From: Antedon mediterranea
Lineage: Eukaryota; Echinodermata; Crinoidea; Comatulida; Antedonidae
Length of the DNA: 64,000 nucleotides
Direction of reading: 5' to 3'
Assembly: GCF_964355755.1 (NCBI RefSeq)
Contig: NC_092670.1
Span: 1,947,001-2,011,000, forward strand
Numbering within the stretch: the first letter of the stretch is position 1; each line of letters begins with the position of its first letter. A program made the position numbers and the translations under genes. Shown in pieces: positions 15,113 to 45,984 of this stretch. The notes under the pieces were generated by a model, which searched no databases, was not told the origin of the DNA, and worked only from the letters and a program-made list of their open reading frames with translations.

Positions 15113-15912
15113 CATTGGTTCCGGTCGGTTCCGGCTTTTTGCCGGCCTTTCGCCATCCGGTATTTCGACACCGGCCCATTTCCTCCAAGTCCATTTTGAC
15201 ACCCGGGCTTTTGCCACCCGGCCCTTTGCCTCCCGATCTGAGAGTGTTATTTGCCCTTTTTAATTAGGCCTGCAATTAAATTTAAATGAACGCAAGATTA
15301 AAATGTGTAAATCATTTTAATTAATGAATTGCTTTTCTATGGTATAGATCCAGATGTTTAAAGTTTTCCGATAATTGTTAAAGTAGACCACCTTGATTAC
15401 CACTTAATTTGTATTTTATCCAAATAAATGTGTACAATTTCGTTACTGATTTCATGAGGACAAAAGCCTATGATATACAGAATCTTCAATTGACTGTCAC
15501 AAAACAATTCGTAAAAACAACTGTTTAATTAACATTGATCAGTAGCATTTCCACTGGATGAGAATATCGGACCTAATTATCTCTATATCGTGATATTAGA
15601 TTTTTTTTAAATCCCACGATCTTGTATACCATCATTGGTCACAGATCTCAGATGGTTTAATGAATTGGCTCCCCCAGTCACAAATGATTTTACTGAGAGC
15701 GGGGGAAAGTATAGCCCTATTATATTCGCCCAGACGCTACGCGCCTTTGTAGCAGGCCGGGTGGCAACAGGCCAGTTGGAAACTAAGCGATGGCCACAGA
15801 CTGGGTGGAAAATTGCCGGGTGACAACAGGCCTGGTGTCAAATGGCCGGTAGTGGCAATGTGCCGGGGTGGCAATGTGCCGGGTGGCAATTTGCCAGGTG
15901 GAAAAATTGCTA
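15113..15912. mobile_element. Inverted-arm element built of GCCACCCGG-type repeats
   Basis: The left arm (15113-15235) is a tandem series of CCGG-C/T-TTTTGCC words (TTTTGCCACCCGGCCCTTTG). The right arm (15750-15910) carries the same words inverted (GGCCGGGTGGCAACAGG, GTGCCGGGTGGCAATTTGCC). It splits a tandem-repeat monomer between TATGAGTAGTAC and GAGAACACAATG, which may be a worn 9-bp duplication. No transposase is seen. Confidence 0.55.
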
Positions 15913-15975
15913 GACCGTGAGAACACAATGTTAAACCAATGCTAACATGTTTATATTTAAAGACAACTGAAGATC

Positions 15976-17520
15976 CATCACCTGTATGCCTACCTATTCC
16001 GCTTATTAAGAAAACCACTAATAATGACGACGACAACAACACCTGGCTGGTAAAAAAATTAATGTCCGTGATCATTGGATGGGCCCAGATTATAATTAGA
16101 AGCATTTTTGCAGAATATGAAAGGTTACGGATGTTTGTTGGGTTGGCCACGACAATATTACGATAGCTCGAATAAGGAAGGATGAGTAAGGATAATGGGT
16201 TTTGAGAATACTAGAGGGGAGGAAGGAAGATAACTAAGATAAGATAGGATTCCAAGACACACTTTTTTCTCAGAGAGTTTCCATGATGAGAGGCTGTTAT
16301 TAATGATAACCCAATGAAATTTAATAGATTTAACTGATGGGATTTCATGGTTTTCAATAAAGTTTTAAGTATGGACACGTCAGCATTATTATTACTCCAA
16401 ATAAGATGTTATGATTGGGTTGAGGGAGAGTTTGTTAGGAGCAAAGTAGTGGGACAAGGAGATAACATTATTACAGTATAATTAGTATTAAAGGTGTCAA
16501 AAGAGTTTGAATGTTTTCATACAGTGTGGTATGCATCCGCGTAACGAAAAATTAATTTTGAGGAGCGCGGTGAACATCAGCGATGTAAAGAGTGAAACTA
16601 GGCATCAGGTACTGATATTGCAGTCATCCTGATGTATCAGCGTGATTAGATGTTGGAAGAAAAACCGTAGATACATCAGCAACACCAATGTACGAGTTAC
16701 TTTGACATCAGATATGTGTGTCGCGCTACCATGATTCCATGCCTTGTGACCATCCCAGTTCATTTCTTCGTAAAGAAAAGGCCAGACCCAAAAAGTTGTT
16801 GAAGAGCTAACTAAAAATATATACACCGTCAAAATAATCAGAAGATTCGTAAAATATCGCTATCATATAAAGATCCAAGAAGTAAAACACCAAGTTGACA
16901 CTAAACAAACATAGATCTTTAAAAAATCTTACAGACCAAAATCATCATCAAACAATCCATTGGAAAAGCTGAAAACAATAAATAGCAGTTCCATTCCACT
17001 GTGTGAGGCAGAATCGAGCTATTTTTTGAAGGAAAGAAGGAAGGAAAACCCAGATGCCAGACCAGGAGAAATGTGATGAATGATAACGACGTTGACAATG
17101 GCGTCTCTTTTGATTAGTTTGCATGTGATTTGTAGTATTAAACTTTTACTACAATTCATAATTTGAATGATAGTGAGAGAGATTATTGAAGAGAGTAGGT
17201 TTTTATATTTAAGAAGTATTTTTATTTAGGAAGTAGTTATTATTATTATTTAGGAATTATTATTTTTTATATTTGGAGAGTTAGGTTTTTATTTAGGAAG
17301 GTGTTTGTTTTATATAATATTTTCTTACACCATTTTTAGTACCGGTTGGAACCAATTCTGATGAATATTGCTGGCAAAACCTTCCGGGAGAACAGTGACC
17401 GGCGCACAGATCTACATTTTGTTATTTGTCCCATTTAATTGTAAAAAGAAACTTTGTTTATGTTAACATTATTTTCCAACATTTTAATTTCACTATTCAG
17501 TATCAAAACTAAGACTTACC
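15976..17520. other. Zinc-finger gene 1 intron, no gene seen
   Basis: Purine-rich on the plus strand in places (AGGGGAGGAAGGAAG near 16213; GAAAGAAGGAAGGAAAA near 17031), with TTATT runs from 17220. I see no domain or splice-bounded exon. Confidence 0.4.
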
Positions 17521-17583
17521 ATTTTTTTTTCAGTTACTAATACCCAGTAGACTTTCACAGTACTACTATACCAACACATAATA

Positions 17584-19686
17584 ATGAATCTATACAAATG
17601 TGAACATTGTGGAGATAAACTTATGTTAAATGATTTGAAGATACATTTGGGGATTGATATGGAGACTAAGAATGAACTACTCAATGATGATTTCACGTTG
17701 AACGTTCAAACACACCAGGAGTTTAAACTTCTTCGATGTCAAGTCAACATTGTCAGACTTGGTTTAGATTTAAATTGTGGGTGGAGCAGACATTTGGGAG
17801 AGTACACAGGAGAGACACCATATGAATGTGAACATTGTGGGAAGAAATTCAAACAGAATGACGATCTAAAAAAGCATTTGAGAGTACACACAAAAGAGAC
17901 ACCATATGAATGTGAACATTGTGGAAAGAAATTCAACCAGAATGACGATCTGAAGAAACATTTGAGAGTACACACAAAAGAAACACCATATGAATGTGAA
18001 CATTGTGGAAAGAAATTCAACCACAATGACGGTTTGAAAAAACATTTGAGAGTACACATAAGAGAGACACCATATGAATGTGAACATTGTGGAAAGAAGT
18101 TCAACCATATTGGGAATTTGAAAAATCATTTAAGAATACACACAAGAGAGAAACCATATAAATGTGAACATTGTGGGAAGAAATTTAAACAGAAAGGGAA
18201 TTTAAAAATACATTTGAGAATACACACAGGAGAAACACCATATTTATGTGAACATTGTGGAAAGAAATTTAAACAGAGTGGGCAATTAAAAATGCACATG
18301 AGAGTGCACACATACACAGGAGAGACATATGAATGTGAACATTGTGGTAATAAATTTAAAAATGGCAGTACTCTGAACAGACACTCGAGAGTACACACAG
18401 GAGAGGCACCAAATGAAGTGTCACCTGATATGGTTAAACAGAAGGGGCGATTACAAACGCATATGGGAGTGCACCGAAGAGAGACATCATATGAATGTGA
18501 ATATTGTGGAAAGAAATTTAAACAGAATGAGCATTTAAAAAAACATTTGAGAGTGCACACAGGAGAGGCACCATATGAATGTGAAGATTGTGGAAAGAAA
18601 TTCAACCAGAATGACGATCTGAAAAAACATTTGAGAGTGCACGCAGAAAAGAAAGATTTGAAGAAACATCTGAGAGTACACACAGAAGAGACACCATATG
18701 AATGTGTACATTGTGGAAAGAAGTTCAACCAGAATTACGATTTGAAAAGACATATGAGAATACACACAGGAGAGAAACCATATGAATGTAAACATTGTGG
18801 AAAGAGGTTTAATGATGGTGGTAATTGGAAAAGACATTTAAGAATACACACAGAAGAGACACCATATGAATGTGAATATTGTGGAAAGAAATACAACCAC
18901 ATTGAGAGTTTGAAAAGACATATGAGAATACACACAGGAGAGAAGCCATATGAATGTAAACATTGTGGAAAGAGGTTTAATGATTGTGGTAATTGGAAAA
19001 GACATTTAAGAATACACATAGAAGAGGCACCATATGAATGTGAACATTGTGAAAAGAAATTTAAAAGTCTTAGTACTCTGAACAGACACTCGAGAATGAA
19101 CACAGGAGAGGCACAAAATGAATGTGGGAAAAAATTAGGACAGAAGGGGCGATTACAAACGCATATGGGAGTGCACCCAGGAGAGAGATCATATGAATGT
19201 GAACATTGTGAAAAGAAATTTAAAAATCGTAGTAGTCTGAACAGACACTCGAGAGTGCACACAGGAGAGGCACCATATGAATGTGAACATTGTGGAAAGA
19301 AATTTAAATATGTAAGTGGGTTAAGGAAACATTGTAGAATCCATACAGGAGAGATGCCATATGATTCTGAAGAATGTGGGAACAAATTAAGATATAGAAC
19401 TGAATTGAGAGCACATTCTAGATCAAACACAAGAGAGGCACCTGCATTTAAACATTGTGGGAAAATATTGAAACAGAACGGGCGATTAAAAACGCATATG
19501 GGATTGTATCCAGGAGAGAAAACTTGTGAATGTGAAGATTGTGGAAAGAAATTTAAATATGCAAGTAGGTTAAGGAGACATCTGAGAATCCATACAGGTG
19601 AGATGCCATATGAATGTAAACAATGTGGGGAAAAATTTAGATATAGAACCAGTCTGAGGAGACATTTGATAAAACATTTAGACTGA
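17584..19686 (+). CDS. C2H2 zinc-finger protein, zinc-finger gene 1
   Basis: A 700-residue protein in one coding exon. An acceptor (TTTTTTTTCAG, AG at 17531-17532) lies 50 bp upstream of the ATG, so the first exon is non-coding, probably the one ending at 7980. The N-terminus has one incomplete finger (CEHCGDKL..H) and a diverged linker with QVNIVRLGLDLNCGWSRHLG, shared with gene 2. It is followed by about 17 intact fingers of the type PYECEHCGKKF-x11-H-x3-H joined by TGE-like linkers. Several fingers are broken: NEVSPDMVKQKG lacks both Cys, AEKKDLKKHLRVH is half a finger, and RHSRMN and HSRSN lose the second His. It is a likely nuclear DNA-binding protein with unknown target. No KRAB, BTB or SET domain is seen. 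Confidence 0.9.
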   Translation: MNLYKCEHCGDKLMLNDLKIHLGIDMETKNELLNDDFTLNVQTHQEFKLLRCQVNIVRLGLDLNCGWSRHLGEYTGETPYECEHCGKKFKQNDDLKKHLRVHTKETPYECEHCGKKFNQNDDLKKHLRVHTKETPYECEHCGKKFNHNDGLKKHLRVHIRETPYECEHCGKKFNHIGNLKNHLRIHTREKPYKCEHCGKKFKQKGNLKIHLRIHTGETPYLCEHCGKKFKQSGQLKMHMRVHTYTGETYECEHCGNKFKNGSTLNRHSRVHTGEAPNEVSPDMVKQKGRLQTHMGVHRRETSYECEYCGKKFKQNEHLKKHLRVHTGEAPYECEDCGKKFNQNDDLKKHLRVHAEKKDLKKHLRVHTEETPYECVHCGKKFNQNYDLKRHMRIHTGEKPYECKHCGKRFNDGGNWKRHLRIHTEETPYECEYCGKKYNHIESLKRHMRIHTGEKPYECKHCGKRFNDCGNWKRHLRIHIEEAPYECEHCEKKFKSLSTLNRHSRMNTGEAQNECGKKLGQKGRLQTHMGVHPGERSYECEHCEKKFKNRSSLNRHSRVHTGEAPYECEHCGKKFKYVSGLRKHCRIHTGEMPYDSEECGNKLRYRTELRAHSRSNTREAPAFKHCGKILKQNGRLKTHMGLYPGEKTCECEDCGKKFKYASRLRRHLRIHTGEMPYECKQCGEKFRYRTSLRRHLIKHLD

Positions 19687-20030
19687 GGCACAAAACATCG
19701 TAAAGGATCCCTGATATGGGGCATGTTACCAGGCACAAAGCATCGTAAAGGATCACTGATATGGGGCATGTTACCAGGCACAAAGCATCGTAAAGGATCC
19801 CTGATATATGGGGCACGTTACCAGGCACAAAGCATCGTAAAGGATCACTGATATGGGGCATGTTACCAGGCACAAAGCATCGTAAAGGATCCCTGATATG
19901 GGGCATGTTACCAGGCACAAAGCATTGTAAAGGATCCCTGATATGGGGCATGTTACCAGGCACAAAGCATCGTAAAGGATCCCTGATATGGGGCATGTTA
20001 CCAGGCACAAAGCATCGTAAAGGATCCCTG
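19685..20030 (+). repeat. 45-bp minisatellite at the zinc-finger gene 1 stop codon
   Basis: About 7.7 copies of a 45-bp unit starting AGGCACAAAGCATCGTAAAG and ending GGGGCATGTTACC. The array begins inside the stop codon (TGAGGCAC), so the first repeat overlaps the end of the reading frame. Units differ by single bases plus one 2-bp insertion at about 19807. Confidence 0.9.
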
Positions 20031-20106
20031 TAGTACTGTAGTACTGTAGTACCGTAGTACCGTAGTACCGTAGTACCGTTGTACCGTAGTACCGTAGTAC
20101 TGTATT
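20028..20106 (+). repeat. 8-bp CGTAGTAC array
   Basis: About ten units of TGTAGTAC or CGTAGTAC follow directly on the 45-bp array. Unit type changes along the run (TG units first, then CG units). Confidence 0.9.
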
Positions 20107-20107
20107 T

Positions 20108-20262: not shown

Positions 20263-21029
20263 ACACACACACAAACAGAAATAGGAAAATTATCAAAAAA
20301 TTACAATATTTTAATTTAATATCAGTACAGTAATTAATCTGTGATTAGAAGCAGTACAACTTTATTTTAGATAAAGTTATTAACTTGTGTGATAGGAACT
20401 TAATATTCCTTATTTGTCTGACCTCCTTTCTGTGTTTTTTTTTTCTTGTAATCTTATGTCCTTTTGGAGGAAATGAATATATTAATTAATCTATTATTTA
20501 ACTTTAATTTTTTTTAATTATTAAAATTTAATTCAAATAAATAGTAGTGTTGATATGTATTTTATTTAATTTCTTCATTAAGCCTTGATGATCGGCCGTG
20601 TGTTTCATGCTAGCGCCCTCATGACCACGCCGGACGTGATGTCTAGCGGCCTCGGACGCGTAGTTACTAATTTAAGTAGTAAATTAATCGGTTCTAGGAC
20701 ACCTACCCCCTAGACAGTTACCCCCGGATGTTTACCACCCGGACAACTACCCCCTTAGGACAAACTACCCACCGGACAACTACCCCCGGACAACTACCCC
20801 CCGGACAACTACCCCCCTTAGGATAACAAACCCCCGGACAACTACCCCCCCCCCCCGGACAACCACCCCTTTAGGACAACTACCCCCTTAGGATAACTAC
20901 CCCCCGGGTAACTATCCCCGGGTAACTACCCCTCCCCCCGGTCAACTACCCCCCCCCCCCCCCCCCAATCCAAAAGTAGACAAATATATATGACCGGTTT
21001 CTGTAAAAATGAAATCATCTGTTTTTAAC

Positions 21030-21434
21030 GGGTGTTTCGAAACTAGAGACCTGACACGAGACCCAATACGAAAAGGGAGATCTATATTCGGGTCTCTCTT
21101 TTCGTATATTAGGGTCTCCCTTTTCGTATAGTGTGGTCTCTCTTTTCGTATAGGGGGTCTCCCTTTTCTTATAGTGGGTCTCCCTTTTCGTATATTTGGG
21201 TCTCCCATTTTGTATATTTGGGTCTCCCTTTTCGTATATTTGGGTCTCCCTTTTCGTATATTTAGGTCTCTCTTTTCGTATATTAGGGTATCCCTTTTCG
21301 TATAGTGGGGTCTCCCTTTTCGTATAGTGGGGTTTCCCTTTTCGTACGTGGGTCTCCCTTTTCGTATATTTAGATCTCCCTGTTCGTATTGGGTCTCGGG
21401 TCTCTGGTCTCTGGTCTCTAGTTTCGAAACACCC
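21030..21434. mobile_element. 405-bp element with GGGTGT ends and 9-bp duplication
   Basis: Inverted termini GGGTGTTTCGAAACTAGAGA and its complement, flanked by a perfect 9-bp duplication GTTTTTAAC (21021-21029, 21435-21443). The inside is almost wholly a tandem array of GGGTCTCCCTTTTCGTATA variants of about 20 bp, in one main direction after a short inverted start. It lies within element A and encodes nothing recognisable. The end sequence resembles GGGTGTCACGAAACC of the 3709-4705 element. Confidence 0.85.
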
Positions 21435-23015
21435 GTTTTTAACCGATTATTCTGTTTAACAGCACGCTATACCCTATAGATGTGCTAGATTTAAAGTACC
21501 GTATTTATTGAAAAAACGGCCTGGGCTGTTTATTGTTTAGGTGGTTTTTAGGTGGACATTTATTGGAAGAAAGTTGTTTATTCAATGGGAGGGGGTATAA
21601 TCTAATGGAAATAGACGCCGCTTATTCCATATGATGTTTCATGGGAGTGACATGGTCACCGTTTATTTGAGGGGAATTTATTTAAAGATCGCCGTTTATT
21701 CGGTGAGTGAACATTGAGGTCAAATATCAAAAGTGATATTATTCTTCAAGTGTACAAAAATACATATATGACAAATTTTAGACAAAAATTAATTCTTTCA
21801 AGACCAGTGGTTATTATCGAAGCATTGTCCTGACGCAAAAATTATTATTATTATTAGCGAACCCAGTCTTTACAGTAAATACAGGGAGTACTATATACAG
21901 TAATACGTTCGACTATCCTATGATCATGTGTGACAATCTTCAGTTTATACCAGGCTATATTTATGTTCAATCTTTTACTTTTGTTTACAATAATGAATAG
22001 TAATTCGTCAAAGTAACGAATTAAAATATAGTTATTAATTCCTATTATACACTGTTGCAGAGTCAGGTTGTTGAATGGTCTGGGTGGTAGTTGTCCGTCC
22101 GGGGGGTAGTTGTTCTAAAGGGATAGTTGTCTTGGTGGTAGTTGTCCAGGGGTTAGTTGTCCTATGGAGGTATTTGTCCTAAAAGATTATTTTCCCTCGG
22201 AGTATTGTCCAGGTCCAGGAGGTAGTTGCCCTACGGGGAGTATTGTGTCAGAGGTAGTTGTCCGCGGGGTAATTACCCGGGAGGGGGAGGGGTAATTCTC
22301 CGGGAATAATTGTCAGGGGGTAATTGTTCCTAGGGGGTAGTTGTCCAGGGGTTAGTTGTCCTACGGAGGTAGTTGTCCTAAAAGATTATTTGCCCTTGGA
22401 GTATTGTCCAGGAAGTAGTTGTCCTACGGGGAGTATTGTGTCAGAGGTAGTTGTCCGCGGGGTAATTACCCGGGGGGTCGGGTAATGGTCAGGGGGGTAG
22501 TTGTCCAGGGGGTAGTTGTCCTAAGGGGGTTGTTGTCCTAAGGGGGTAATTGTCCGGGGGATATTTGTCCGGGGGTAGTTGTCCTAAAGGGGTAGTTGTC
22601 CTAAGGGGGTAGTGGTCCAGGTGGTGGTTGTCCGGGGGGCGATTTTTTTTTTCGTACATAAGTTGGGGACCCCTCATGAAACGTCACAAAATAAACATGA
22701 ATAATTCATCAGTTAAATGTGTTGTTCCGCGTGCACCCAAGCGTATAGCAACAAGAAGCGATTACACAACTGCGATACGATACTTTCTACAGTAGGCCTA
22801 GGATTCTAAGTCAATTCACGCGATTGCCTTCGCGCACTCTTCTTCACACAAAATGTGTCGAGTCGAGGCTAATCGACAGCTAGGCAAGACATTAAACTAA
22901 GTAGTAATTCATTGGACATAGCCCAAAGAAAGCTTAGACCCACAAGAATAAAGAATGTGTATAATTTGTGTACTGTATTTTTTTTAATTCTGCTATTTTA
23001 TTATCAAACAATGCA

Positions 23016-24701
23016 GGGTGTGTAGAAAGCGACGACCTCGAATTGGACGACCCCAACGACCCGGGCGACCTCGAATTGGACGACCTAGAATTGGACGACC
23101 CATAACACGAAACCGACGACCCCTATAATAGCCTAGCCTAGCCTAGGCCTAAGTATGGTATAACATCCCGAAGCCGAACATAACCAAAGATCTTTAAACC
23201 ATACCTTATATAATACTCGCAAGCAAGCAATTGATTGAAAAAATACAGAAATATCGCCATTTGATACTGAATGTGTCGACACGAACAAACGAACAGATAT
23301 GGAACGCCAAGAGTGCATCATTAAAACTGCATTCGACTCGATTAGCACACGAAATATCATAAACATGGCAAACCAGGCCCTTTTTCAGCGGCAGGTAAGG
23401 TTTGACCGTATACAATGCATGTGTGAAATGTAAAGCTTTCTTATGGCCCTCCCCATGCAGGATTAGGCCAAGTTGAGCCGCCGACAAGTTGAGGCGCCGC
23501 CAAAAACGTTATTTTCTATGAAACGCCAAATGCTTACTTTCGCCGGTGCTCGTTTCTATTTAATAGAAGTTCTATTTCTATTAATTATTAGATATAAATG
23601 TATATTCCAAAGTTTATATATCACGGTTTTTAGTATATATTATTAAATATTATAATTAAAGAGAAATAATTATGAATATCTGACTTGTAGATTCCAAAAT
23701 ATAAGGCCTAAAACATGACCGAAAATGATCGTTTTTAGCCAAAAATGACGTAAACATGTTGCCCCCTCAGGCGGCAGTTGAAGTAAAATAATTGCATAAA
23801 ATCACCGTTTTTTAGTATAATATTTTGTGTATTAACATTGTAAAATTCAATAAAATATGATATTAAAAGATAGTAAATAAAAAATAATAATTATTTAACC
23901 TCATTCGAAGAATATCAATACTCTATTAGTCCTGAGAGACAACGTGATTTTACGTGGTAGGCATACACACGAGAAAAATATTATGGAGTGCACTGCATTT
24001 TTACCTTGAAAGATTAAAAACAATTAAATTATTAAATATGACTACTTTCCTTTGCTGTTTCAAACCAACAAAATTGTAGTATGTAATTATTATTTATTTT
24101 CATGACACAATAAACCTAAAGACCATGAACTTATATAGGGCCTACTAGGACACCACTCTATCACTACGCGAAATGTCGTAAAAGACGCACTGGCCGTTTC
24201 ATAGAAATTACCGGCGGCTCAATTTGTCGGCGGCCCAACCGGTCATATCCCCCCATGCACATGTTACGCTGCTTGGTAGGCCTATAGTGTTCGTTATAAG
24301 AAGACAAGATGTAATTATACGTCCATGGTTTAACCATGTATTGTATAATATTTATTTCTTTTTAATTTATTTTTAATATGTCGAATGCAGTTTTAATTAT
24401 GCACTCTTGGCGTTCCATATATTTTCGTTTGTTCGTGTCGACACAATCAGTATCAAATGGCGATATTTCTGTATTTTTTCAATCAATTGCTTGCTTGCGA
24501 GTATTATATAATAAGGTATAGTTTAAAGATCTTTGGCTATGTTCGGCTTCGGGATGTTATACCACACTTAGGCCTAGGCTAGGCTAGGCTATAGGGGTCG
24601 TCGGTTTCGTGTTATGGGTCGTTCAATTCGAGGTCGTTCAATTCGAGGTCGCCCGGGTCGTTGGGGTCGTCCAATTCGAGGTCGTCGCTTTCTACACACC
24701 C
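23016..24701. mobile_element. Element C, GGGTGT ends, perfect 10-bp duplication
   Basis: Starts GGGTGTGTAGAAAGCGACGA and ends with its complement. The outer arms are CGACGACCTCGAATTGGA units, and the inverted match then continues for about 330 bp in all (to ATGCACTCTTGGCGTTCC and beyond). It is flanked by AAACAATGCA at 23006-23015 and 24702-24711. Its own length without insert D is about 0.9 kb. No protein is encoded. Confidence 0.9.
23460..24250. mobile_element. Element D, innermost of the stack
   Basis: 791 bp with ends GGATTAGGCC and GGTCATATCC, and about 65 bp of imperfect inverted arms holding GAGCCGCCGACAA and TTTCTATGAAACG. It is flanked by a perfect CCCCATGCA duplication (23451-23459, 24251-24259). 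The interior is AT-rich with no coding. Confidence 0.85.
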
Positions 24702-25055
24702 AAACAATGCATGTACTCAAAGGAACTTTAAAAATGCGCGTATTTTATGAACACATGAGATGGGAAGATTAGACCCACGAGAATAAAAACTGTATTTTTG
24801 TGTAATGTTTATTGTTTAATTTTGCTGACTTATTACTCGGATTGTGTCATACCTATAACACACACACACACACACACAGCTCTACTAGAATAGACATATG
24901 TTTAGAGACTAATAATTAGGCCTAGGCCTAATAGTATTAATAGAAACTATAATTTTAACACATAATTCTTTAGTAATAAATTATATTAAAAACACTATCA
25001 TAAACTAAAGGCTGATTGTTTCGACAATCCACACAAAACGCCGCTGTTCTTCTAA

Positions 25056-25916
25056 GGCCCTGTTTCTGCTGCCAATCCCAAATATACCGTATAAATATAC
25101 CGTATAAATATACCGTATATGAAATTCGTGCACCGTTTCCGCTGCACATACTTCGTGGGTGGGCTGTAAAAAAAGTTGGCTTTCATATACCCAAAATGCA
25201 TTTTGTGAGACGGAAGTATGGATTGACCTAGAGTCTCGTGTAGTGAGGTTACATGACAAAAACAAAACAATGATGGTTTCTCAAAACGTCTTAGCATTGC
25301 TTTCTATTTTAAATCTAATGATCAGAAGTGGCACCGAATTTACATCGCACAAACAATCTAGAAATGTAGAATGGGCATTGACTACATTTATGCAAAGAAG
25401 ACGACGGCGTTTGCCGATAACTTTGGCGTTATTAAGTCTACCACAAATTCTGCTTTTATTTTGTTTGAGATACTATTGTAAATCTCGGTATCTCTTCTGT
25501 TGCCATGTAGTCTCCCCCCAACCTTCGCTTCTCCCCACAATTGAATTGCAAAAATAGTTATTTCTTCAGTCCACAGTGATATTTTGATCTGTTGCTTGCT
25601 TATTATACACGTGTGTGTCAATGCAGCAGAAAAACCAAACAAACGCGTCACGCTCTGTTAGTTTTTGACCTCGTGTCATGGGCCGGGTCACATATACGGT
25701 ATATTTTGAGTGCAGCAGAAACGGGGTACGAAATATACGGTATATTTTGGAATATACCGTATAATATCCACAAACGATGGGGATATTTATGCGGTATATA
25801 TACCGCATATATATACGGTATATTTTTTATGAGACCCATTTCTGCTGCCAAAAAATATACCGTATATAAAATATACCGTATATATACGGTATATTTTTGG
25901 CAGCAGAAACGGGGCC
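25056..25916. mobile_element. Element E, GGCCC(C/T)GTTTCTGCTGCC ends
   Basis: Inverted 18-bp ends with one mismatch lead into repeated ATATACCGTATATA palindromes on both sides. A further copy of the terminus is inside, near 25711-25740 (GCAGCAGAAACGGGGTACGA). Target duplication is not clear; a TA on each side is possible. Small open frames here come from the inverted arms. Confidence 0.7.
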
Positions 25917-26329
25917 TATGAAATCGCATGCACGCCGCAACAACAGCGCGGAGATATAGGCCTAGAATCGTACCGCACTTGTTGTGTAATCACTTCTTGT
26001 TGCTATACGCTTGGGTGCACACGGAACAAGAACATTTAACTGATGAATTATTCATGTTTATGTTGTGACGTTTTATGAGGGGGTCCCCAACTTATGTACG
26101 AAAAAAAAAATCGCGTCCGGGGGTAGTTTTCCGGGGGTAAATTTCCAGGGGGGTGAATATCCGGATACGAAATTAATCATGATTGTGTATTATACTGTTG
26201 ACCTATTGCATCTTTAAACTGTTATAAATTTTTTTAAAGAATTATTACTACTGTATAAGTATTTTTGTTTTCATTTTAAGTTATGATAATCTTTCAGACA
26301 TTTTGCAAGTAGGCCTACTGTAGTTAATC

Positions 26330-26560: not shown

Positions 26561-26646
26561 TGACCTATTGTATATTGATTTGCTCTCGTTATCCAGTTGT
26601 TTTAAAGTAAAGTTTTTTTTGCCAATCATCATTTTCAATCATCATT

Positions 26647-33355: not shown

Positions 33356-33369
33356 ATAGGCCAACGTAA

Positions 33370-33631: not shown

Positions 33632-33760
33632 GTATGTTAGTTTTATTTTGTTGTATGGTTTTAGGTATTAGATGATAATATCAATCCATGATCAATCTTA
33701 TGTTGCGTATTTTTTTAACCAATGAGTAAGACTTAATTCTCCCTTTCGAAACGACCTTTA

Positions 33761-34549: not shown

Positions 34550-34660
34550 TACTTCCGATGCACGAGTTATTATTTTGCATGGGTAGACTAGTCTTGCTCC
34601 AAGGCCACCAGTCGACGTTTCGATTGTTTCTGAAATACGGTTTACCACCTAAAGCAGTAC

Positions 34661-34739: not shown

Positions 34740-35417
34740 GCTATTCTATTAGTATTCAATTCCAAGAACTTATTAACAAGACAAAAAGTAACACAAACAA
34801 TAATGACAAGAGATAGTCCAGAAAACGGACGAAGGCAGATCCCAGAAAGATGAGAATCTTGTGACGGGATTGCCTTTACAAATTAATTAAAAATAGATAT
34901 TATTATGAAAAATAAAAAATATGTTAATAAATTAATTACATATAATTATGAAGTGTAATTTGTCCTGTTAATATTTGGTCACAAAAGGTAGGCAACAGTA
35001 GTTTTGATAAATAAAATAATTTGTATTCATACGTACAGTATCTGTACTCCCTGTATCTCTTGTCTGACATGTCATACGGAGCCACGTTGCAGGGAGGGGA
35101 AATTTCTTATCACTGATCATTCTATCAAATATCCGGTACAGCAATACTCACATACATAATATACATATACCTGAAGAAGATGCCGATACCAGTCTTTACC
35201 TTCTGTATGTACTGTACACTGTGTATGTTTAATTACAAATTATGTCTCTGTTTTTATTTAACACAAAATAAAAATGAGAGGCAGCAGCATCAGCAGCATT
35301 GCCATTATTACCAACATTACTGCCTGCTGTCATTCCTACTAGTATATCCATCTGAAAGCTTGTTTACTGATTAATAGCCAGACATCAATCCCCATCTCAG
35401 AACAACTCACAAACATT
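34740..35417. other. Zinc-finger gene 2 intron, no gene seen
   Basis: AT-rich with a GCAGCAGCATCAGCAGCAT run near 35282. The 62- and 64-codon open frames here show no domain. Confidence 0.35.
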
Positions 35418-35633
35418 TTATTTATTTATTTATTTTATTTTATGTCTTTAGGCAATGTGGCCAAGGATTACCAATAGTGAATTAATCACTGTCCTATCAG
35501 ATAGGTGGTAATCCCCCTGATACAGGGGCTATTGTGTGAACCAGTTCACCGGGGTAACCCCCTACTCTTTTTCGAATAATGAACTGGGTTTCTTTAAAGT
35601 ACACACAGGTTATAACTGTGTACACTGGACCTA
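35418..35633 (-). mobile_element. SINE-like element, short copy
   Basis: Nearly identical to 14632-14849. It ends at GGACCTAC and lacks the part of the longer copy that carries the B-box-like GGTTCGAGGCC. On the minus strand it would therefore be 5'-truncated, with the (TAAA)n tail at 35418. Confidence 0.6.
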
Positions 35634-36321
35634 CATTACCCACTCACAAGAACACCACAACACATCATGGTTACAATTATCACATTTACCTCATTAATAA
35701 TAGCATATTCAATATGCCTGTACACAATAGTCACAATTTTTAAATAGTTCAGTCACACGACAACCAACAAAAATAGAAAATTGGTGTTTACATAGGGCCT
35801 ACACATCCGCATTATATAATTCTATTGCGGACTACCGTACCACACCCATCATCTAGTTTACACTGGGTTAGGTCCTGTCCTTCAGTGAACAGTATTAACA
35901 CACAATGGTCTCAGTTGACAAACCATAGAACAATTCAACTGTGAATATTGTAAGAAAAAAGCCAAACAGTTGAGACTGAAATTTGACTGTTACCTGTAGT
36001 ATACCGTAAAATCTGCAAAATAATAACAGAGATATATTTTTTTAAACCTCTTTATATCATTCGTTTTTCTTTCGGCACAACCAGTGATATCTCTGAATAT
36101 TTAAAAATGAAACCTATAGTAATGTATTAAGAAATTCAAACTGTACTTTCAAATGATGTTTATTACATTATTTTATTTTTGTTCACAATTTTAATTTCAT
36201 TGCTTTTTTTATGATTTGTGGTTTATTTCTTTTTGTCAGTGACTTCTTGAAAGTGTACCAATATCCAGTGGTAACAGCCAGGGAAAGTCAGATTTACTGT
36301 ACTTAATGCTATTACATAATA

Positions 36322-38133
36322 ATGAATCTATGCAAATGTGAACATTGTGGAGATAAACTTCATTTAAATGATTTGAAGATACATTTGGGAATGGATATGG
36401 AGACTAAGAATGAACTACTCAATGATAATGATTTCAAGTTGAACATTCAACCTCATCAGGAGTTTAAACTTCTTCGATGTCAAGTCAACATTGTCAGACT
36501 TGGTTTAGATTTAAATTGTGGGTGGAGCAGACATTTGGGAGAGTACACAGGAGAGACACCATATGAATGTGAACATTGTGGGAAGAAATTTAAACAGAAA
36601 GGGAATTTAAAAATACATTTGAGAATACACACAGGAGAAACACCATATTTATGTGAACATTGTGGAAAGAAATTTAAACAGATTGGGCAATTAAAAACGC
36701 ACATGAGGAGAATGCACACATACACAGGAGACACACCATATGAATGTGAACATTGTGGAAAGAAATTCAACCAGAATGACGATTTAAAAAAACATTTGAG
36801 AGTACACACAGGAGACACACCATATGAATGTGAACATTGTGGAAAGAAATTTAACCAGATTTGGAATTTGAAAATACATCTGAGAATACACACAGGAGAG
36901 AAACCATATGAATGTGAACATTGTGGAAAGAAATTCAAACGGAATAATGATTTGAAAAAACATTTGAGAGTACACACAGGAGATACACCATACGAATGTA
37001 AACATTGTGGAAAGAAGTTTAAACATGGTAGTACTTGGAGAAGACATTTGAGAATACACACAGGAGAGAGACCAAATGAATGTGAACATTGTGGAAAGAA
37101 ATTCAACCAGAATGACGATTTAAAAAAACATTTGAGAGTACACACAGGAGACACACCATATGAATGTGAACATTGTGGAAAGAAATTCAAACGGAATAAT
37201 GATTTGAAAAAACATTTGAGAGTACACACAGGAGATACACCATACGAATGTAAACATTGTGGAAAGAAGTTTAAACATGGTAGTACTTGGAGAAGACATT
37301 TGAGAATACACACAGGAGAGAGACCAAATGAATGTGAACATTGTGGAAAGAAATTCAACCAGAATGACGATTTAAAAAAACATCTGAGAATACACACAGG
37401 AGACACACCATATGAATGTGAACATTGTGGAAAGAAATTCAAACGGAATGACGATCTGAAAAAACATTTGAGAGTACACACAGGAGAGATTGGGAACTTA
37501 AAAATACATTTAAGAATACACACAGGAGAGAGACCATATGAATGTGAACATTGTGGGAAGAGGTTTAATTCTGATAGTAATTGGAAAAGACATTTAAGAA
37601 TACACACAGGAGAGAAACCATATGAATGTAAACATTGTGGAAAGAGGTTTAATGATGGTGGTAATTGGAAAAAACATTTGAGAATACACACAGGAGAAAC
37701 ACCATATGAATGTGAACATTGTGGAAAGAAATTCAAACGGAATGACAATCTGAAAAAACATTTGAGAGTACACACAGGAGAGAGACCATATGAATGTGAA
37801 CATTGTGGCAAGAAGTTCAACAAGAATTACGATTTGAAAAGACATATGAGAATACACACAGGAGAGAAACCATATGAATGTGAACATTGTGGAAAGAAGT
37901 TCAACATGATTGGTAATTGGAAAAAGCATTTGAGAATACACACAAGAGAGAAACCATATGAATGTGAACATTGTGGAAAAAAGTTCAACCAGAATTACGA
38001 TTTGAAAAGACATATGAGAATACACACAGGAGAGAAACCATATGAATGTGAACATTGTGGAAAAAAGTTCAACCAGAATTACGATTTGAAAAGACATATG
38101 AGAATACACACAGGAGAGAAACCATATGAATGA
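36322..38133 (+). CDS. C2H2 zinc-finger protein, zinc-finger gene 2
   Basis: A 603-residue paralogue of the protein at 17584-19686, in a single coding exon. An acceptor (TTTTTGTCAG) is 82 bp upstream. The N-terminal 90 residues match gene 1 almost exactly, including MET-KNELLND and LRCQVNIVRLGLDLNCGWSR. Eighteen intact fingers follow with Y-E-C-E-H-C-G-K-K-F cores and TGE/TGD linkers, plus one half finger (GEIGNLKIHLRIH). Fingers 5-7 and 8-10 are a nearly exact 252-bp duplication. The frame ends abruptly in KPYE-stop, where a new finger would begin, so the array is cut. It has fewer broken fingers than gene 1, which suggests it is the better-kept copy. A DNA-binding role is likely; the target is unknown. 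Confidence 0.9.
   Translation: MNLCKCEHCGDKLHLNDLKIHLGMDMETKNELLNDNDFKLNIQPHQEFKLLRCQVNIVRLGLDLNCGWSRHLGEYTGETPYECEHCGKKFKQKGNLKIHLRIHTGETPYLCEHCGKKFKQIGQLKTHMRRMHTYTGDTPYECEHCGKKFNQNDDLKKHLRVHTGDTPYECEHCGKKFNQIWNLKIHLRIHTGEKPYECEHCGKKFKRNNDLKKHLRVHTGDTPYECKHCGKKFKHGSTWRRHLRIHTGERPNECEHCGKKFNQNDDLKKHLRVHTGDTPYECEHCGKKFKRNNDLKKHLRVHTGDTPYECKHCGKKFKHGSTWRRHLRIHTGERPNECEHCGKKFNQNDDLKKHLRIHTGDTPYECEHCGKKFKRNDDLKKHLRVHTGEIGNLKIHLRIHTGERPYECEHCGKRFNSDSNWKRHLRIHTGEKPYECKHCGKRFNDGGNWKKHLRIHTGETPYECEHCGKKFKRNDNLKKHLRVHTGERPYECEHCGKKFNKNYDLKRHMRIHTGEKPYECEHCGKKFNMIGNWKKHLRIHTREKPYECEHCGKKFNQNYDLKRHMRIHTGEKPYECEHCGKKFNQNYDLKRHMRIHTGEKPYE
36907..37410 (+). repeat. 252-bp duplication of three fingers
   Basis: Two adjacent 252-bp units, each encoding fingers with helix cores KRNNDLKK, KHGSTWRR and NQNDDLKK. 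They differ at only a few bases by eye, which points to recent unequal exchange within gene 2. Confidence 0.85.
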
Positions 38134-39480: not shown

Positions 39481-40046
39481 TACGAAGCCCCATTGGGGAC
39501 ATATGTAAAAAAAAAGCCTCCACAACTCGTACGTACGACTTAGATATCTCGTACGTACGCTCTATTATCACGTACGTACGACTTATTATCTCGTACGTAC
39601 GTGTTATTTTCTCGTACGTACGACTTATTATCTCGTACGTACGTGTTACTTTCTCGTACGTACGAGTTATTATCTCGTACGTACGAGATAATTACTCGTA
39701 CGTATGCGTTATCTTGTATACGTCACACGTGTAATTGAACCATGAACCACGTGTGCGCACATTGACATATGTGGCCTGCTTGTTGACAACCTGATGAGCT
39801 AGACTGGCTCTAGTCTTATAGTACTACTCTCTATCAAATGGGATGGCCAGTCTGTGTATTCAGGAGGAGTGTATATGTGGTTGTCAAACCTTTTACCACT
39901 GTTAAGTGTAAGCTGACAGCGAATGTGATGTGAGAGAAGTTATAGAGATTTTAAACCAGGCGCAAGTTTGTCTAATTAATTACAACAATTCCTGTTAAAA
40001 CAACCTAGAATTCTCCACCCCTCTCTAACCATAAAGTCATCTCATC

Positions 40047-40365
40047 TTGATTGTGATTACAAGAAGACTATTGCTCACGGCTCATTTCGAGAAGTATTCA
40101 AGGGAATGTACCAATATGAGCATGTTACCGTAAAGAAAGTGAAGTTGAGAAAGGGCAATCAAGCGTCCGAAGAAGCGGATTATAAGGGAGGCTCAATTAG
40201 ACCAACAACTCGCACACAAGAATATTGTAAAGTTCATTGGAATTTGCCTCTGGAGTATCCTTGATGTCTATCATCACTGAATTCATCTATTGGCAAAACA
40301 TGGAGGAAACGAAATAGGAAAGTGGTAGTTGCTGCAACTGGTGTTGTAGGTGTTTCGTATTTACA
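40047..40365 (+). pseudogene. Protein kinase domain fragment
   Basis: Read with frame changes, the segment gives L-D-C-D-Y-K-K-T-I-A-H-G-S-F-R-E-V-F-K-G (the glycine-loop region), then HVTVKKVKLRKG with the ATP-site Lys, then I-R-E-A-Q-L-D-Q-Q-L-A-H-K-N-I-V-K-F-I-G (alpha-C helix Glu and following strand), I-I-T-E-F-I (hinge) and VVVAATGVVGVSYLH. This is the N-lobe and early C-lobe of a Ser/Thr or tyrosine-kinase-like domain. At least three frame breaks and a TAG show it is not functional. It stops at the LINE 5' border. No introns are visible. Confidence 0.75.
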
Positions 40366-43300
40366 CACAAGCAGATTATTCTGATGAATTACATGCATCA
40401 CATATACCTCCAGAAATAAATAATGCTGATTTTAATCCTCTGATAGATAACGACCTAAAATTCGACCAACAATCCAACATGTTAATAGATCATCTTAATT
40501 TAAGGTCATCCACGCTTGATAATTGCAAATATCATGATATCAATATATTTAATAATTTTACTGGCAAATTACCAGATAGTAATCACCTATCTCTATTACA
40601 TCTTAACATCAGAAGTGTATCTAATAAATTTGATAAACTTAACGAACTCGTACACTCTATTAACTTAAAATTCAGCATAATTGGCCTTTCTGAAACCTGG
40701 TTGAATGAAAGCAAAATGCATCCATTTCTTCATAATTATACTTTTTTATCTAGTGATCGCATTGGCAATAAAACAGGAGGTGGTGTTGGCTTGTTTGTTA
40801 AAAACCATATTAATTATAATATCAGAAATGACTTAATATTGCCAAAAGAAATATGTGACTCACTATTTATAGAAATCATTCATAAAAATAAGAAAAATTC
40901 TATTATTGGCATTATCTATAGACCACCGGATTCCAATATTGATACCTTCTCTACAATAATAAATGACCTACTAACTAAAGTAAATTCTGAAAATAAATAT
41001 TGTAATATAATGGGAGATTTTAATATTGACCTTATTAAATTTCATAACCATAATCATATCAATAATTATCTAAATACTATTTTATTAAATTCTTTTTTTC
41101 CTACTATTTCGAAACCAACCAGAATTACAACAAATAGTGCGACTCTTATTGATCATTTTTATACAAATCACATAAATCTTGAAATAACATCCGGTATAAT
41201 AATATCAGATATCTCTGACCATCTACCTATATTCCAAATAATTGACTATGATTTATGTTTTAAAAACACCTCAATTGATTACTCACATTATGTTGCAGAC
41301 ATAAATTCACTAAATTTTGATTTATCGCAGGCTGATTGGTCAAGTGTTTATAATGCTGATTATAAATCTGCTATTGATACATTTAATGATATATTTTTTA
41401 GTATTTATCAACGACACTTGGTCACTAAAGAAATTAAAATAAATAAATATAAAAAATGCAAACAGCCTTGGATGACCCCTACTCTTCTTAAAAGCAGTCA
41501 ACGAAAACACTACCTTTATAAAAAATATATTAAATCTCAGAGCCCAAACGACAAAACAACATACACAAGTTATAATAATTTGTTTATTGCTCTTTGTCGT
41601 ACTGCTAAAAAACAATATTATGAAAGAAAATTCAATCAAGTCAAAACAAATATTAAGAAAGTTTGGGGTGTGATCAATTCTGTTTTAAATCCAGCTAGAA
41701 AAATTAATAAAAATCCCTCAGTCTTGAAAATTGGGGATGAATTTATTTATGATACTAACTCTATATGTGATCACTTTAACAAATATTTTTCAGAAATCGG
41801 TTTAAAAACGCTAAACTCCATCCCAGATAATAATATTGATCCAATGTCGAATTTACCACCCCCACCCATTAATTCATTTTTTTTTAACCCAGTCACTGAA
41901 AATGAAGTGTTGAACATGATCAACAGTCTAGACTCTAATAAAGGATCAGGACACGACTCCCTTACACCTTCTGTTCTTAAAAAAGTTACTCCTTTTATTT
42001 TAATTCCTCTTACTTATGTTATCAATTTATCTTTTACTACAGGAATCGTACCTGATCATATAAAATTAGCTAAAGTGGTCCCAGTTTTTAAAAAGGGAAA
42101 TGCAAACTTACTTAACAATTATAGACCGATTTCCGTTCTCCCCATTCTCTCAAAAATAATAGAAAAATTAATGCATACTCGTCTTTATACATATTTAACT
42201 AAACATAACATCCTAAATAATCATCAATATGGTTTTCGTAAAAAACACTCTACCTGTCACGCTATGCTTGAACTTATACATTCAATTAATAATGCATTTG
42301 AAAATAAAGAATTTTTGTTAAGCACTTTTCTTGATCTATCCAAAGCTTTTGATGTTGTTAATCATGATATTTTACTTTCAAAACTGTTACGTTATGGCAT
42401 TAGAGGTGTTTCGTTAAAATGGTTTATTAGTTATCTTAGTAATCGTAAACAATATGTACAGATTGGTAACTGTAAATCATCGGCAAAGAACGTTCCATGT
42501 GGTGTACCACAGGGGTCGGTCCTTGGACCCTTATTATTTCTTATTTACGTAAATGACATAACCTTTGTTAGTGATACACTGAATATTGTTTCCTTTGCCG
42601 ATGATACAACTTTATTTTATTCAAACAAAAATATTGATTTATTAGTAAATACCTTTAATTTAGAATTAAATAAGATTGAAAATTGGTTCTCTTCTAATAA
42701 ATTATTGATTAATACTTCAAAAACAAATTTCATTATATTTCACTCCCATCGAAACAGGCATAAATTAAGTAACAAAAACATTCAGGTTGTTCTAAATGGT
42801 AAAAATCTGGACCGAAAAAGCGAAACTTTATTTCTTGGAATTTTAATTAATGAAAACTTAAATTGGACCGGTCATCAGAAAAATATTTCAATCAAAATGT
42901 CTAAATGCATTGGTGTTATAAACCAGATAAAATATTTTTTTCCTCAACACATTTTACTTTCTTTGTATAATTCGCTTATATTACCACATTTACTTTTTGC
43001 AATATTATATGGGCAGCTGATTATCCATCAAATTTACAAAGAATTTTCATTTTACAAAAACGTGTTGTTCGATTATTAAACTTTGAACAATCTACATCTG
43101 CATCAGAACCTTTGTTTAAAAAACTTAAAATTTTAAAAATATATGACCTTCATAAACTTCAAGTTACTTCTTTTATGTTTGAATATGTTACTGGTTTACT
43201 ACCAAAGTCTGTTTCAATGTTATTTTCAAATCGTTTATTAGATCATACCTATAACATAAGAAATCCACATAAATTGTATGTTCCATTTGTTAAACTTAGA

Positions 43301-43695
43301 AAAAGCCAGTTTTTTATTACTTATTTAGGACCAACGTATTGGAATAATCTAGATTCAACTGCCATCAATCATTTATATACTGTAAATTCATTTAGAAAGC
43401 ATATAAAAATCCTTTATTTATCTTGTTACCAAACCTACTAAATATGTTGCGCACTGTATAATTTATTTAATTGTATGCGTTGTATTTGTATATTTATACG
43501 GTACCGTTCTTATTTTTGTTTGAATTATTATTATTATTTTAGGGGTCAATGTGAGACAAGTTCTACTTCTAATTTTGATCCCTAAGATGGTCTTATATTA
43601 ATTGTTTATGATTGTTTATTGTAATATTGTTTGTTATATATTGTGACCATCTTAAATAAATGTATTATTGAATTGAATTGAATTGAATTGAATTG
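40366..43695 (+). mobile_element. LINE retrotransposon with endonuclease and reverse transcriptase, one frameshift
   Basis: The main frame (40350-43079) opens in kinase-fragment sequence. LINE similarity starts near 40366. Apurinic-type endonuclease: LLHLNIRSVSNKFDKL (about 82-97), SETWLN (about 114), GDFNID (about 221), SDH (about 288). Reverse transcriptase: NYRPISVLPILSKIIEKLM, FLDLSKAFDVVNH, VPCGVPQGSVLGPLLF (about 715-730) and the catalytic FADD (about 749). After a frameshift near 43005 the C-terminal part continues in another frame (IWAADYPSNLQRIFILQKRV) to a stop at 43441. The 3' UTR ends (TTGAA)n at 43667-43695. Domain order and tail suit the CR1/L2/Jockey group. The 5' end is probably truncated, and a promoter was not identified. 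Confidence 0.9.
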
Positions 43696-43755
43696 TGTTT
43701 ACCGACCAACCCGCCGACATAGTGAGATGTAGAGTCGCGTTGCACGCGACTAAAA
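43696..43755. repeat. TCGCG-hairpin repeat fragment
   Basis: CCGACATAGTGAGATGTAGA followed by the hairpin AGTCGCGT-TGC-ACGCGACT and AAAA. It is the same terminus as the insert ending at 9299. It begins directly after the LINE tail. Confidence 0.6.
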
Positions 43756-44470
43756 CGTATATTGACTTGCTTGCCTTTTATAATTTTGAAGACATTGAAC
43801 TATCATCATTAAAGCAGGGAAGAATTAAAGTGATTTTAAAATATGTAGTAAAATATAATGAAAATTAAAAGGATAAGAGTGTAAGCTACAGTATATCAGT
43901 TTAAAAGTAGACACTGACTATCTACCATCGTTTGAGGCAAAAATTAGGATATTATAAATAATATTAAGAAGCACAGAGTATGTGTCAATTTAGGATTTTT
44001 CAAATAAAACAAAATCATCATAAAACTTATTTTTGATTTACTGAATGTTGACACTTACACATACTGATATCTTCACAACTGTAGAAATCAAAACGAATAG
44101 TGATAACATCTTTGACACTTTTTCTATTAATTAAGAGCTCTGTAAGGTGCTCTTTAATCTTTAAAGGCACGACGTATTCTGCCCAACCTTTAACATCACG
44201 GCACCAGTGGTTTAATACCATACTTAAACCTATTACTAAGTAATGGTAACATTATATTGCTACATGTTTTAAGATTATTTTAAGTTTAAGTTTTTGTTCA
44301 ACGTTTCTATGATTAGAATGAGAGAAAGTAATTGTCCTCTACTAAAATATCGGCATACAGATGATTTACAATAAATTCACCGGGTTTTATAATTATTGTT
44401 TTGTTATTATTTTTCTATTATATTATAAGTCATTCATCATCGTAATAATTGTTTTTCAAATTTTGATATT
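43756..44470. other. No gene recognised
   Basis: AT-rich. The 64-codon minus-strand frame at 44027-44221 has no recognisable domain and no supporting splice sites. Confidence 0.3.
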
Positions 44471-44479
44471 TGTGAACCT

Positions 44480-44775
44480 TATAATTTTGGACATTTTGGA
44501 ATCGAGATGGCGGTTATTCGGTCACACCCTCAGATTGCAAAAGGAAGTCCCAGCCAATAAAGCAAAACTATTATTTTGAAAAATTTAAGCAACAAAAGTA
44601 TAGAGGACGACCACGATCCACACTACACTGGTAACTCTATCGAACGACCTGATCACCCTTCATAAACAATCATCAACTGCACTACCCCCTAGGATCAAAG
44701 TATAAAAGATATAGCGAACAGACAGGACCGGAGGAAAGCAATCCGAGATATAAGCAAAGCTAAAATTTATAATGT
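44480..44775 (+). pseudogene. LINE C-terminal remnant
   Basis: Across frames it reads R-x-R-L-F-G-H-T-L-R-L, then V-P-A-N-K-A-K, KYRGRPRSTL, L-S-N-D-L-I-T-L-H and N-R-Q-D-R-R-K-A-I-R-D-I. This is the RGRP plus DR-x-x-W-type end of a LINE ORF2. Stops and frameshifts are present. Confidence 0.6.
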
Positions 44776-45700
44776 TGTTGTTGCCACTATGTCACGTGGA
44801 CTTGTGGAAATTAAATTATATACAAAAAAAGTAGTAGAAGAGTAGTAATTTTCCTCGATCATTGAAAAACTTTGAATAAACCAAGTTATATACAGGACCG
44901 CTGGTATGGTTATTACTGCGAAACTATATCGCACCCAATCTAATTACGTTACAATATACATTTAGATTTGTAAACATTTTTCAAATAATATATACAAAAG
45001 ATGCGAAAACAAATAGACATAATAGATAGATATAAAATAATTTATAAATTGAAAAAGAAAATTCTAATGGACGCCCCAATTCATGTGATGTTATCCCCAT
45101 TTATTTCAACCACTCTCTTCTTGATAATTCAAAGCAATATTGATGGATTCAAAATCAATTATGTTTAGTTTACATAATGTCAAAATGAATATAGTCAAAT
45201 GCTTTTTTCACACATATAAATCAGAACCATCACTATAAAATCTTAGCTGTACTTAATATACTGATGCATGTCTGTAATTGTTGTAAATCCTTCGGAATTG
45301 ACATCATGTGGAGAGATTCATAAATGAATGATAAATATTAAGATTCTAAGCCCTGAGTTAATTGACTTCCTCATAGCCCGGTCGTTGGATGGATGGTCGT
45401 TTTTTAGAAAGTTTATCGCTTACGAGAGAGGTGGATAGACTGATAGCTATACATCTACATTAGCGGTGGATTGTTCTACATTAACGGTTGTTTCGACATT
45501 TTAGCTTGCGTTTTCTACATTAAGCTTGGTTCTCACTAGAACGTACGCAAGGACGTAAACGCAACGCAACCAATGACAAGCGGCAGTTCGGATAATCCAT
45601 CGCTTGTGATTGGTCAATTCACTCACGTTGCGTTACGTGTTGCGTCTCTAGTGGGAACCAAGCATCCGGTTGTACACGTACGCACAAGAGTACAATATAA
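44776..45700. other. No gene recognised
   Basis: AT-rich to 45.5 kb, then a GC-richer patch at 45530-45670 with an inverted pair: TTGGTTCTCACTAGAACGTA with CGCAACGCAACCAATGACAAG, against its complement GATTGGTCAATTC, GTTGCGTTACG and CTAGTGGGAACCAAG. This is a small inverted-repeat insertion just inside the right CGTACG arm. Confidence 0.4.
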
Positions 45701-45984
45701 TAAGTCGTACGTACGAGATAATAAGTCGTACGTACGAGATAATAAGTCGTACGTACGAGATAATAAAGTCGTACGTACGAGATAATAAGTCGTACGTACG
45801 AGATAATAAGTCGTACGTACAAGATAGTGGCGGAAATTTAATTTTCTTTAATCAAACGGATGTCCCTAATGGGGCTTCGTAGTAGTCACAGTGTGTAGCG
45901 TAAAAGAAAAAATATAAGAAAAGAGATTCTGCACTTTTACTTTTTTCATACGCTACATCATACACACACAACACGGCCGTTAAT

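Follow-up and report, generated by a model that had tools for sequence, protein, structure and literature searches.

Foldback transposons with mirror-image tandem-repeat arms in Antedon mediterranea and their relation to Mutator-like elements

A 64,000-nucleotide stretch of the Antedon mediterranea genome (contig NC_092670.1, positions 1,947,001–2,011,000), referred to here as the window, carries short tandem arrays that face each other in opposite orientation, raising the question of whether these arrays are the arms of transposable elements and, if so, which kind of transposase moves them. A preliminary description had placed inverted-arm elements at positions 3709, 15113, 20690, 23016 and 39481, each with its own "private" arm repeat, and had treated them as one group with a possible Mutator-like element (MULE) as autonomous partner. 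Our results support that interpretation in part. We hold with considerable confidence that the window contains cut-and-paste foldback DNA transposons, non-coding in their window copies, whose terminal inverted repeat (TIR) has been extended into an array made of one short unit; that the family at 20690 is Phantom-type Mutator-like; and that a second group, sharing a terminus beginning GGGTGT, is probably Mutator-like as well.

Arrays were called with Tandem Repeats Finder and arms with a self-alignment of the window, whose sequence was also read directly. This yielded 45 inverted pairs that scored 50 bits or more with less than 7 kb between their members (overlapping array pairs counted separately); 10 dinucleotide shuffles in 2-kb blocks yielded 0, with a top score of 36.5 bits. 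The elements at 3709 (E1), 20690 (E3), 21030, 23016 (E4) and 39481 (E5) all carry short tandem repeats in inverted arms, confirming that the foldback plan with mirror-image tandem-repeat arms is real. The arms pair at 94.6% identity in E1 (3705–3797/4709–4619), 95% in E4 (23016–23337/24701–24380) and 82% in E5 (39481–39659/45881–45690), and pairs of the E3 type reach 135 bits. Array lengths vary among copies and between the two arms of one element: E1, E3, E4 and E5 show inverted arms of variable array length, 21030 shows them very unequally, and the family of the array at 33085 shows them as pairs. At four of the five proposed positions arms and units were as described; at the fifth, 15113 (E2), no inverted pair within the window reached 50 bits. 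The elements are nested, E3 containing 21030 and an element at 22639, which in turn contains E4 (Table 1). Copy numbers from our DNA searches are lower bounds, 40 candidates having been scored out of 613 (window 20600–21500), 1,216 (a long terminal repeat (LTR)-like insert in E1), 1,310 (E4) and 109 (33085).

Fixed ends and a coding relative of the element at 20690

E3 has two unequal ends, which we named A (GGTTCTAGGACACC) and B (CGTATCCGGATATTCACC). With at most one mismatch, 257 A sites and 251 B sites were found genome-wide, and reversed-pattern controls for both ends returned 0 sites. Among the listed sites on C1–C3 (80 A and 73 B), neighbours within 8 kb comprised 59 cases of A facing B, 2 of like facing like and 7 non-convergent arrangements; because unlike ends outnumber like ends 59 to 2, the fixed ends of this family are settled. 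The pairs span 1,496–2,131 bp in 50 of the 59 cases. The fixed ends and target duplications that had been anticipated are thus borne out, the latter by exact duplications. The arms of E3 were as first described; its extent had to be corrected to 26169, the right arm being split by the insertion at 22639–26114.

The PF10551 (MULE) profile gave 36 matches genome-wide, of which 31 were fetched, and four of seven PF20700 (Mutator) places were fetched as well. The top PF10551 match, at C2:22961653 (59.3 bits; locus L011), has its MULE domain (3.7e-16, L011:3933–4250) flanked by inverted E3-type arms (GGACAACTACCCCC). Upstream, in a separate frame, lies a FLYWCH domain (PF04500, 3e-7, L011:2736–2942), and a single mRNA joining the two frames is putative. 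L011 spans 4,659 bp between ends CGTATCCGGATA and GGTTCTAGGACA, which match those of the window E3, and is bordered by an exact 9-bp duplication (CTTTTAAAT). Because L011 combines a FLYWCH frame with arms of the E3 type, the same two unequal ends and a duplication of 9 bp, the E3 element of the window appears to be a non-coding relative of a Phantom-type Mutator-like element. A MULE-type coding partner, of the kind that the preliminary description had proposed to seek, was accordingly found for this family; at the fetched loci none was found for the GGGTGT group described below.

The 405-bp element at 21030 occupies exactly 21030–21434, as had been stated. Its array was said to fill it; the arms are in fact unequal, the left one holding ~1 unit (by eye) and the right one ~14. 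When window 20600–21500 was used as the query, one of the 40 scored places was the window itself, 36 started at query positions 80–91 (window 20679–20690) and ran through 21030 to the query end, and three started later. Since 36 of the 40 continue through it, 21030 can be regarded as a long-standing passenger of the E3 family; a 21030-like element also lies at the same site in L011, with an exact 9-bp duplication (GTTAAAAAC on the other strand). Judged by eye, the TIR of the element at 22639–26114 is similar to the plain TIRs (GCGAAATTTT, 9 bp) of L003/L004, loci that code for a MULE transposase.

Two further fetched loci, L006 and L028, join L011 in having a MULE domain between inverted arrays of one unit. 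The bracketing cut-off, set after the data had been seen, was a unit of at least 15 bp with a reverse complement of at least 0.9 on the opposite side, within the stretch cut out. L006 has a 20-bp unit, an 8-bp duplication and one end starting GGGT, and L028 has a 16-bp unit with only ~2 copies per side. Copies of L006 (L005 and L014) and of L028 (L029) each have one arm in their stretch. The short-unit array is one-sided or unpaired in L001/L002, L026, L027, L039 and L043. At L027:5176–5437 we observed a 16-bp unit (GGGGCGACTTTGCGAT) in ~16 copies on one side of the MULE domain, ending in GGGATGCTAG when read inwards, possibly an arm of a further coding foldback family.

Elements sharing the GGGTGT terminus

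E1, 21030 and E4 have the terminus GGGTGTNNNGAAANNNNNGACC in common, and the family F, with terminus GGGTGTGTCGAAAGCGAAGACC, is a fourth in this group. The arm repeats are therefore not private, contrary to what had been claimed: three elements share one terminus, and the E1 and E4 units each resemble the F unit. Genome-wide, GGGTGTNNNGAAANNNNNGACC occurs at 900 forward and 898 reverse sites (1,798 in all), with 0 + 0 in the reversed-pattern control. When the first 100 sites were taken, neighbours no more than 15 kb apart stood +/− in 41 cases and in the other three arrangements together in 11.

Eleven independent elements with this terminus were examined for target duplications. These were exact and 10 bp long in eight (L016–L020, L034, L035 and the window E4), 10 bp with one mismatch in E1 and 9 bp in 21030; no target duplication was found for L015. 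Ten of the 11 elements consequently lie within the 8–10-bp range of MULE duplications (PMC5225508). We consider the elements at 3709, 21030 and 23016 to form one terminus group that is probably Mutator-like too. Grouping them with the E3 family, as had been proposed, fails on duplication length, which the preliminary description itself had named as grounds for rejection: 9 bp in the E3 family and mostly 10 bp here, both within the MULE range (PMC5225508). L015 additionally contains a separate 44-bp array. IS4EU, considered for this group because it makes 10-bp duplications, had no support from the literature and was dropped.

Copies of E4 are 92–100% identical at the 40 places scored out of 1,310 candidates, and 97–98% identical in 30 of these 40. 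The listed copies mostly end within one base of 23016 and 24701, some extending up to ~15 bases more; the copy at C3:16363385 continues through the entire right flank, which it therefore shares. Inside E4, at 23469–23503 and ~24210–24240, lies a second inverted pair, built of GCCGCC-type units (AAGTTGAGCCGCCGAC), which by eye looks like the remnant of an earlier foldback element. The LTR-like insert in E1 recurs at 39 other listed places in the genome, among which are 13 neighbouring same-strand pairs 2.7–10.1 kb apart, like paired LTRs.

Two of the four families tested have an array unit that repeats their terminal motif: 14 of 15 positions agree in E1 and 15 of 15 in F (L016), each unequalled in 5,000 shuffles. 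A unit-to-unit comparison across 12 families gave two of 66 pairs below 0.02, E1–F (13/15) and F–E4 (11/15), each with 0 of 600 shuffles; two in 66 is about the number expected by chance at that cut-off, though both do fall below it. A CGAAA motif shared with L001 and L028 was noticed post hoc. The idea that unit lengths track helical turns (10, 15–16, 21) was dropped, since the 33085 unit is ~24 bp and a null is absent.

Other elements and features of the window

The lone array at 33085 had been suggested to be a single arm, and this proved correct. When 40 of the 55 rows for its family were checked for pairing, 13 inverted pairs emerged elsewhere, all in the order − then + and spanning 604–1,079 bp; the window copy has one arm. 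E2 has clear arms only in one copy, L025 (105 bits). It lies inside a ~291-bp repeat, and its flanks appear to be common to the window, L023 and L025 (three copies, aligned by eye); these copies therefore give no evidence of independent insertions. The E5 terminus recurs, by eye, in L021 and L022.

Table 1. Elements and their parts in the window (positions in the 64,000-nucleotide stretch).
Feature	Position	Strand	Description
E1, foldback element	3709–4705		terminus GGGTGTCACGAAACCTAAGACC; ~15-bp unit CACGAAACCTAAGAC; 10-bp duplication CCTAGTTAGC/CCTAGTTCGC (1 mismatch)
LTR-like insert in E1	3914–4502		TG...CA; 4-bp TTAT duplication
E2, old foldback-like element	15113–15917		15-bp unit TTTGCCACCCGGCCC; arrays 15195–15235, 15753–15901
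E3, foldback element	20690–26169		unequal ends GGTTCTAGGACACC.../CGTATCCGGATATTCACC...; exact 9-bp duplication AAATTAATC on both sides; probable non-coding relative of L011
E3 left arm	20690–20960		units GGACAACTACCCCCC and longer variants
E3 right arm	22078–22638		inverted units; resumes at 26115–26169 past nested insertion
405-bp element within E3	21030–21434		terminus GGGTGTTTCGAAACTAGAGACC; 22-bp unit; exact 9-bp duplication GTTTTTAAC
Element without minisatellite arms inside E3 right arm	22639–26114		~150-bp TIRs GCGATTTTTTTT...; 9-bp duplication GTCCGGGGG
E4	23016–24701		terminus GGGTGTGTAGAAAGCGACGACC; 15-bp unit TCGAATTGGACGACC; 322–325-bp inverted arms; exact 10-bp duplication AAACAATGCA
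Single arm of separate foldback family	33085–33368		unit ~24 bp, TAATTTGCCGTGGTGTTTCATTTT; inverted pairs elsewhere
E5	39481–45881		terminus, by eye, TACGAAGCCCCATT.GGGACAT; arrays 39526–39712, 45690–45826 of a 21-bp unit with CGTACGTACG
Non-LTR retroelement within E5	40350–43441	+	endonuclease 1.1e-8, reverse transcriptase 2.8e-35, single 909-aa frame; ATTGA repeats at 43667

Several other features were recorded in the window. A 1,492-bp near-perfect palindrome (29904–31395) is 95.7% self-complementary and shows neither a listed minisatellite nor a target duplication, and further inverted pairs at 25055–25917 (61.7 bits; rich in ATATACCGTATAT) and 33759–34551 (109 bits) likewise gave no target duplication. 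The element at 55801–56561 has 147-bp TIRs (CGCCGTGGCTAAAGATACGG), an exact 9-bp duplication (ATTATTGTA) and no arrays; its likeness to MULEs lies in the duplication length alone. Two long C2H2 zinc-finger frames (17551–19686 and 36307–38133), ~18.8 kb apart, are 80% identical over 1.79 kb. At the end of the first begins a 45-bp array (7.6 copies, 95%) adjoining an 8-bp array (GTAGTACC, 9.4 copies), the two covering 19686–20104. A 44-bp tandem array at 53415–53876 has 10.5 copies that are 97% alike, and a 220-bp direct duplicate (14627–14845 and 35415–35634) shows 98.6% identity over a distance of ~20.8 kb.

Known systems, rival explanations and a possible mechanism

The foldback Mutator-like plan is already known from mosquitoes, nematodes and other organisms, and the window families are a further instance of it; the suggestion that no such group had been described does not hold, as Muta (PMC5225508), Tm1 (PMC3169594) and Foldback elements share the plan. 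Muta1 and Muta5 of Aedes aegypti, both MULEs, start with an 8–10-bp terminal motif, after which a 12-bp (Muta1) or 15-bp (Muta5) unit is repeated nine times, and 9–15-bp subterminal tandem repeats occur in 10 of 12 long-TIR Muta families. Muta1 and Muta5 make 8–9-bp duplications and have more than 300 and more than 200 non-autonomous derivatives, respectively; Muta1, classed as a type 2 Foldback, transposes in yeast (PMC5225508). The window elements likewise have a short terminal motif with subterminal tandem repeats behind it, although here the ends of E3 are unequal, the GGGTGT duplications are mostly 10 bp and several units measure 16–24 bp.

In Tm1 of root-knot nematodes (Mutator/Foldback) the tandem units measure 13–15 bp, the terminal motifs are asymmetric and lie outside the inverted repeat, the duplications are 9 bp long, and a rare coding copy has FLYWCH together with a MULE transposase (PMC3169594). 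E3 and L011 match it in unit size, asymmetric ends, duplication length and the FLYWCH and MULE pairing of the rare coding copy, and differ in host, terminal sequences and unit sequences. Galileo of Drosophila, a foldback-like member of the P superfamily whose transposase binding sites lie in tandem repeats (PMC3688188), resembles the window elements in its long, internally repetitive arms; its transposase is P-type with a THAP domain, whereas the coding copy L011 has MULE and FLYWCH domains. Rehavkus, a MULE outgroup, has a 9-bp duplication, a PHD finger and a minisatellite that precedes the 3′ TIR, and Phantom has 8–10-bp duplications and, in aphids, a minisatellite past the transposase frame (PMC6446971). 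The 9-bp duplication, MULE-like character and minisatellite of Rehavkus recur in E3/L011. Its array, however, lies only before the 3′ TIR, whereas in L011 both arms carry arrays and a FLYWCH frame is present; no PHD finger was found in a Pfam scan of four L011 frames. The TU foldback elements of the sea urchin, with 15-bp units and 8-bp duplications, are a further comparable system. A sea urchin foldback element is cited in PMC4079207, and the main text of a 2026 survey of arthropod MULEs does not contain the word "tandem" (PMC13359780). In the literature consulted we recognised no paper describing these particular families, which is a weak negative.

Fixed and oppositely oriented ends, target duplications, a MULE domain within E3-type arms and, in E1 and F, units that copy the terminal motif all support the reading of these elements as Mutator-like foldbacks with arrays grown from their TIRs; several results weigh against it. 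Only three of the 31 fetched MULE loci are bracketed by arrays on both sides, the remainder having one array, none paired or, as in L003/L004, plain TIRs. The exact GGGTGT terminus brackets no domain at the 31 PF10551 loci or at four of the seven PF20700 places (diverged ends would escape this comparison), and no transposase was seen in the listed frames, read by eye without a Pfam scan, of the eight fetched GGGTGT elements (L015–L020, L034 and L035). E5 lacks a clean target duplication, the window copy giving no match and L021 an ambiguous 8-bp candidate. The proposed copying of the terminal motif by the array unit, which held for E1 and F, is borderline in E4 (11/15; matched by 1.1% of shuffles) and falls short of significance in 21030 (6.5%).

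The GGGTGT group, which may number up to ~900 elements, could instead owe its mobility to a transposase of some other, non-Mutator-like kind, its likeness to E3 being convergent. The failure to find PF10551 or PF20700 between GGGTGT ends at the fetched loci speaks for this, as do duplications of mostly 10 rather than 9 bp, and such convergence has a precedent in Galileo, a foldback that uses a P-type transposase (PMC3169594). A length of 10 bp nevertheless falls in the MULE range (PMC5225508), and a GGGT start also occurs at the sole visible end of the MULE family L001 (by eye) and at one end of L006; we judge a non-Mutator-like enzyme improbable. In the eight elements themselves, L018 has a reverse transcriptase-like frame (by eye), the longest listed frame in the other seven is 178 aa, and tblastn with MULE frames found no match in L015–L020. 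That the arrays are ordinary satellites in chance opposite orientation would suit E2, whose examined copies look co-amplified with the ~291-bp flanking repeat at one site. The empty shuffle control, the exact duplications and the 59-to-2 pairing of unlike ends contradict it for E3 and the GGGTGT group and leave it very improbable. Helitron and Helentron elements also carry short tandem arrays, and the window elements could be of that kind; their inverted ends and target duplications, and the MULE domain of L011, contradict this for E3 and the GGGTGT group, and we give it hardly any credence.

What the arrays do is a separate matter. They might have no binding role and be tolerated slippage by-products of repeat-prone terminal repeats, a view in keeping with array lengths that differ by copy and arm (~1 against 14 units in 21030) and with the non-significant likeness of the 21030 unit to its terminus. 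We find this somewhat unlikely, given that the unit of E1 and L016 is identical or nearly so to their terminal motif and that THAP sites of the Galileo transposase have been mapped within tandem repeats; for Foldback and Phantom, a binding-site role of the tandem repeats was untested as of 2013 (PMC3688188).

On the reading that we prefer, in which the arrays have grown out of the TIR, the units would serve as repeated binding sites for the DNA-binding domain of the transposase, and the arrays would lengthen and drift through replication slippage or unequal exchange. Non-coding copies would be mobilised in trans, and families would part as unit and transposase change jointly. More tentatively, and with considerable doubt on our part, the genome may house many foldback lineages side by side (E3/L011, L006, L028 and GGGTGT at the least, besides E5, 33085 and others), each addressed through a repeated terminal word peculiar to it. 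In that case the array would be an amplified binding site, a zip code keeping a transposase on its own non-coding copies, and drift of the word would split lineages into families that do not cross-mobilise; E1, F, E4 and 21030 may exemplify a lineage split in this way.

The window elements are of an ordinary type yet a rich instance of a known plan. The paired terminus and 10-bp duplication of the GGGTGT group provide an annotation signature for elements that might otherwise be listed as unrelated satellites. With 1,798 ends and several unit variants on one terminus within one genome, this group could be used to test whether array unit and transposase DNA-binding domain change together.

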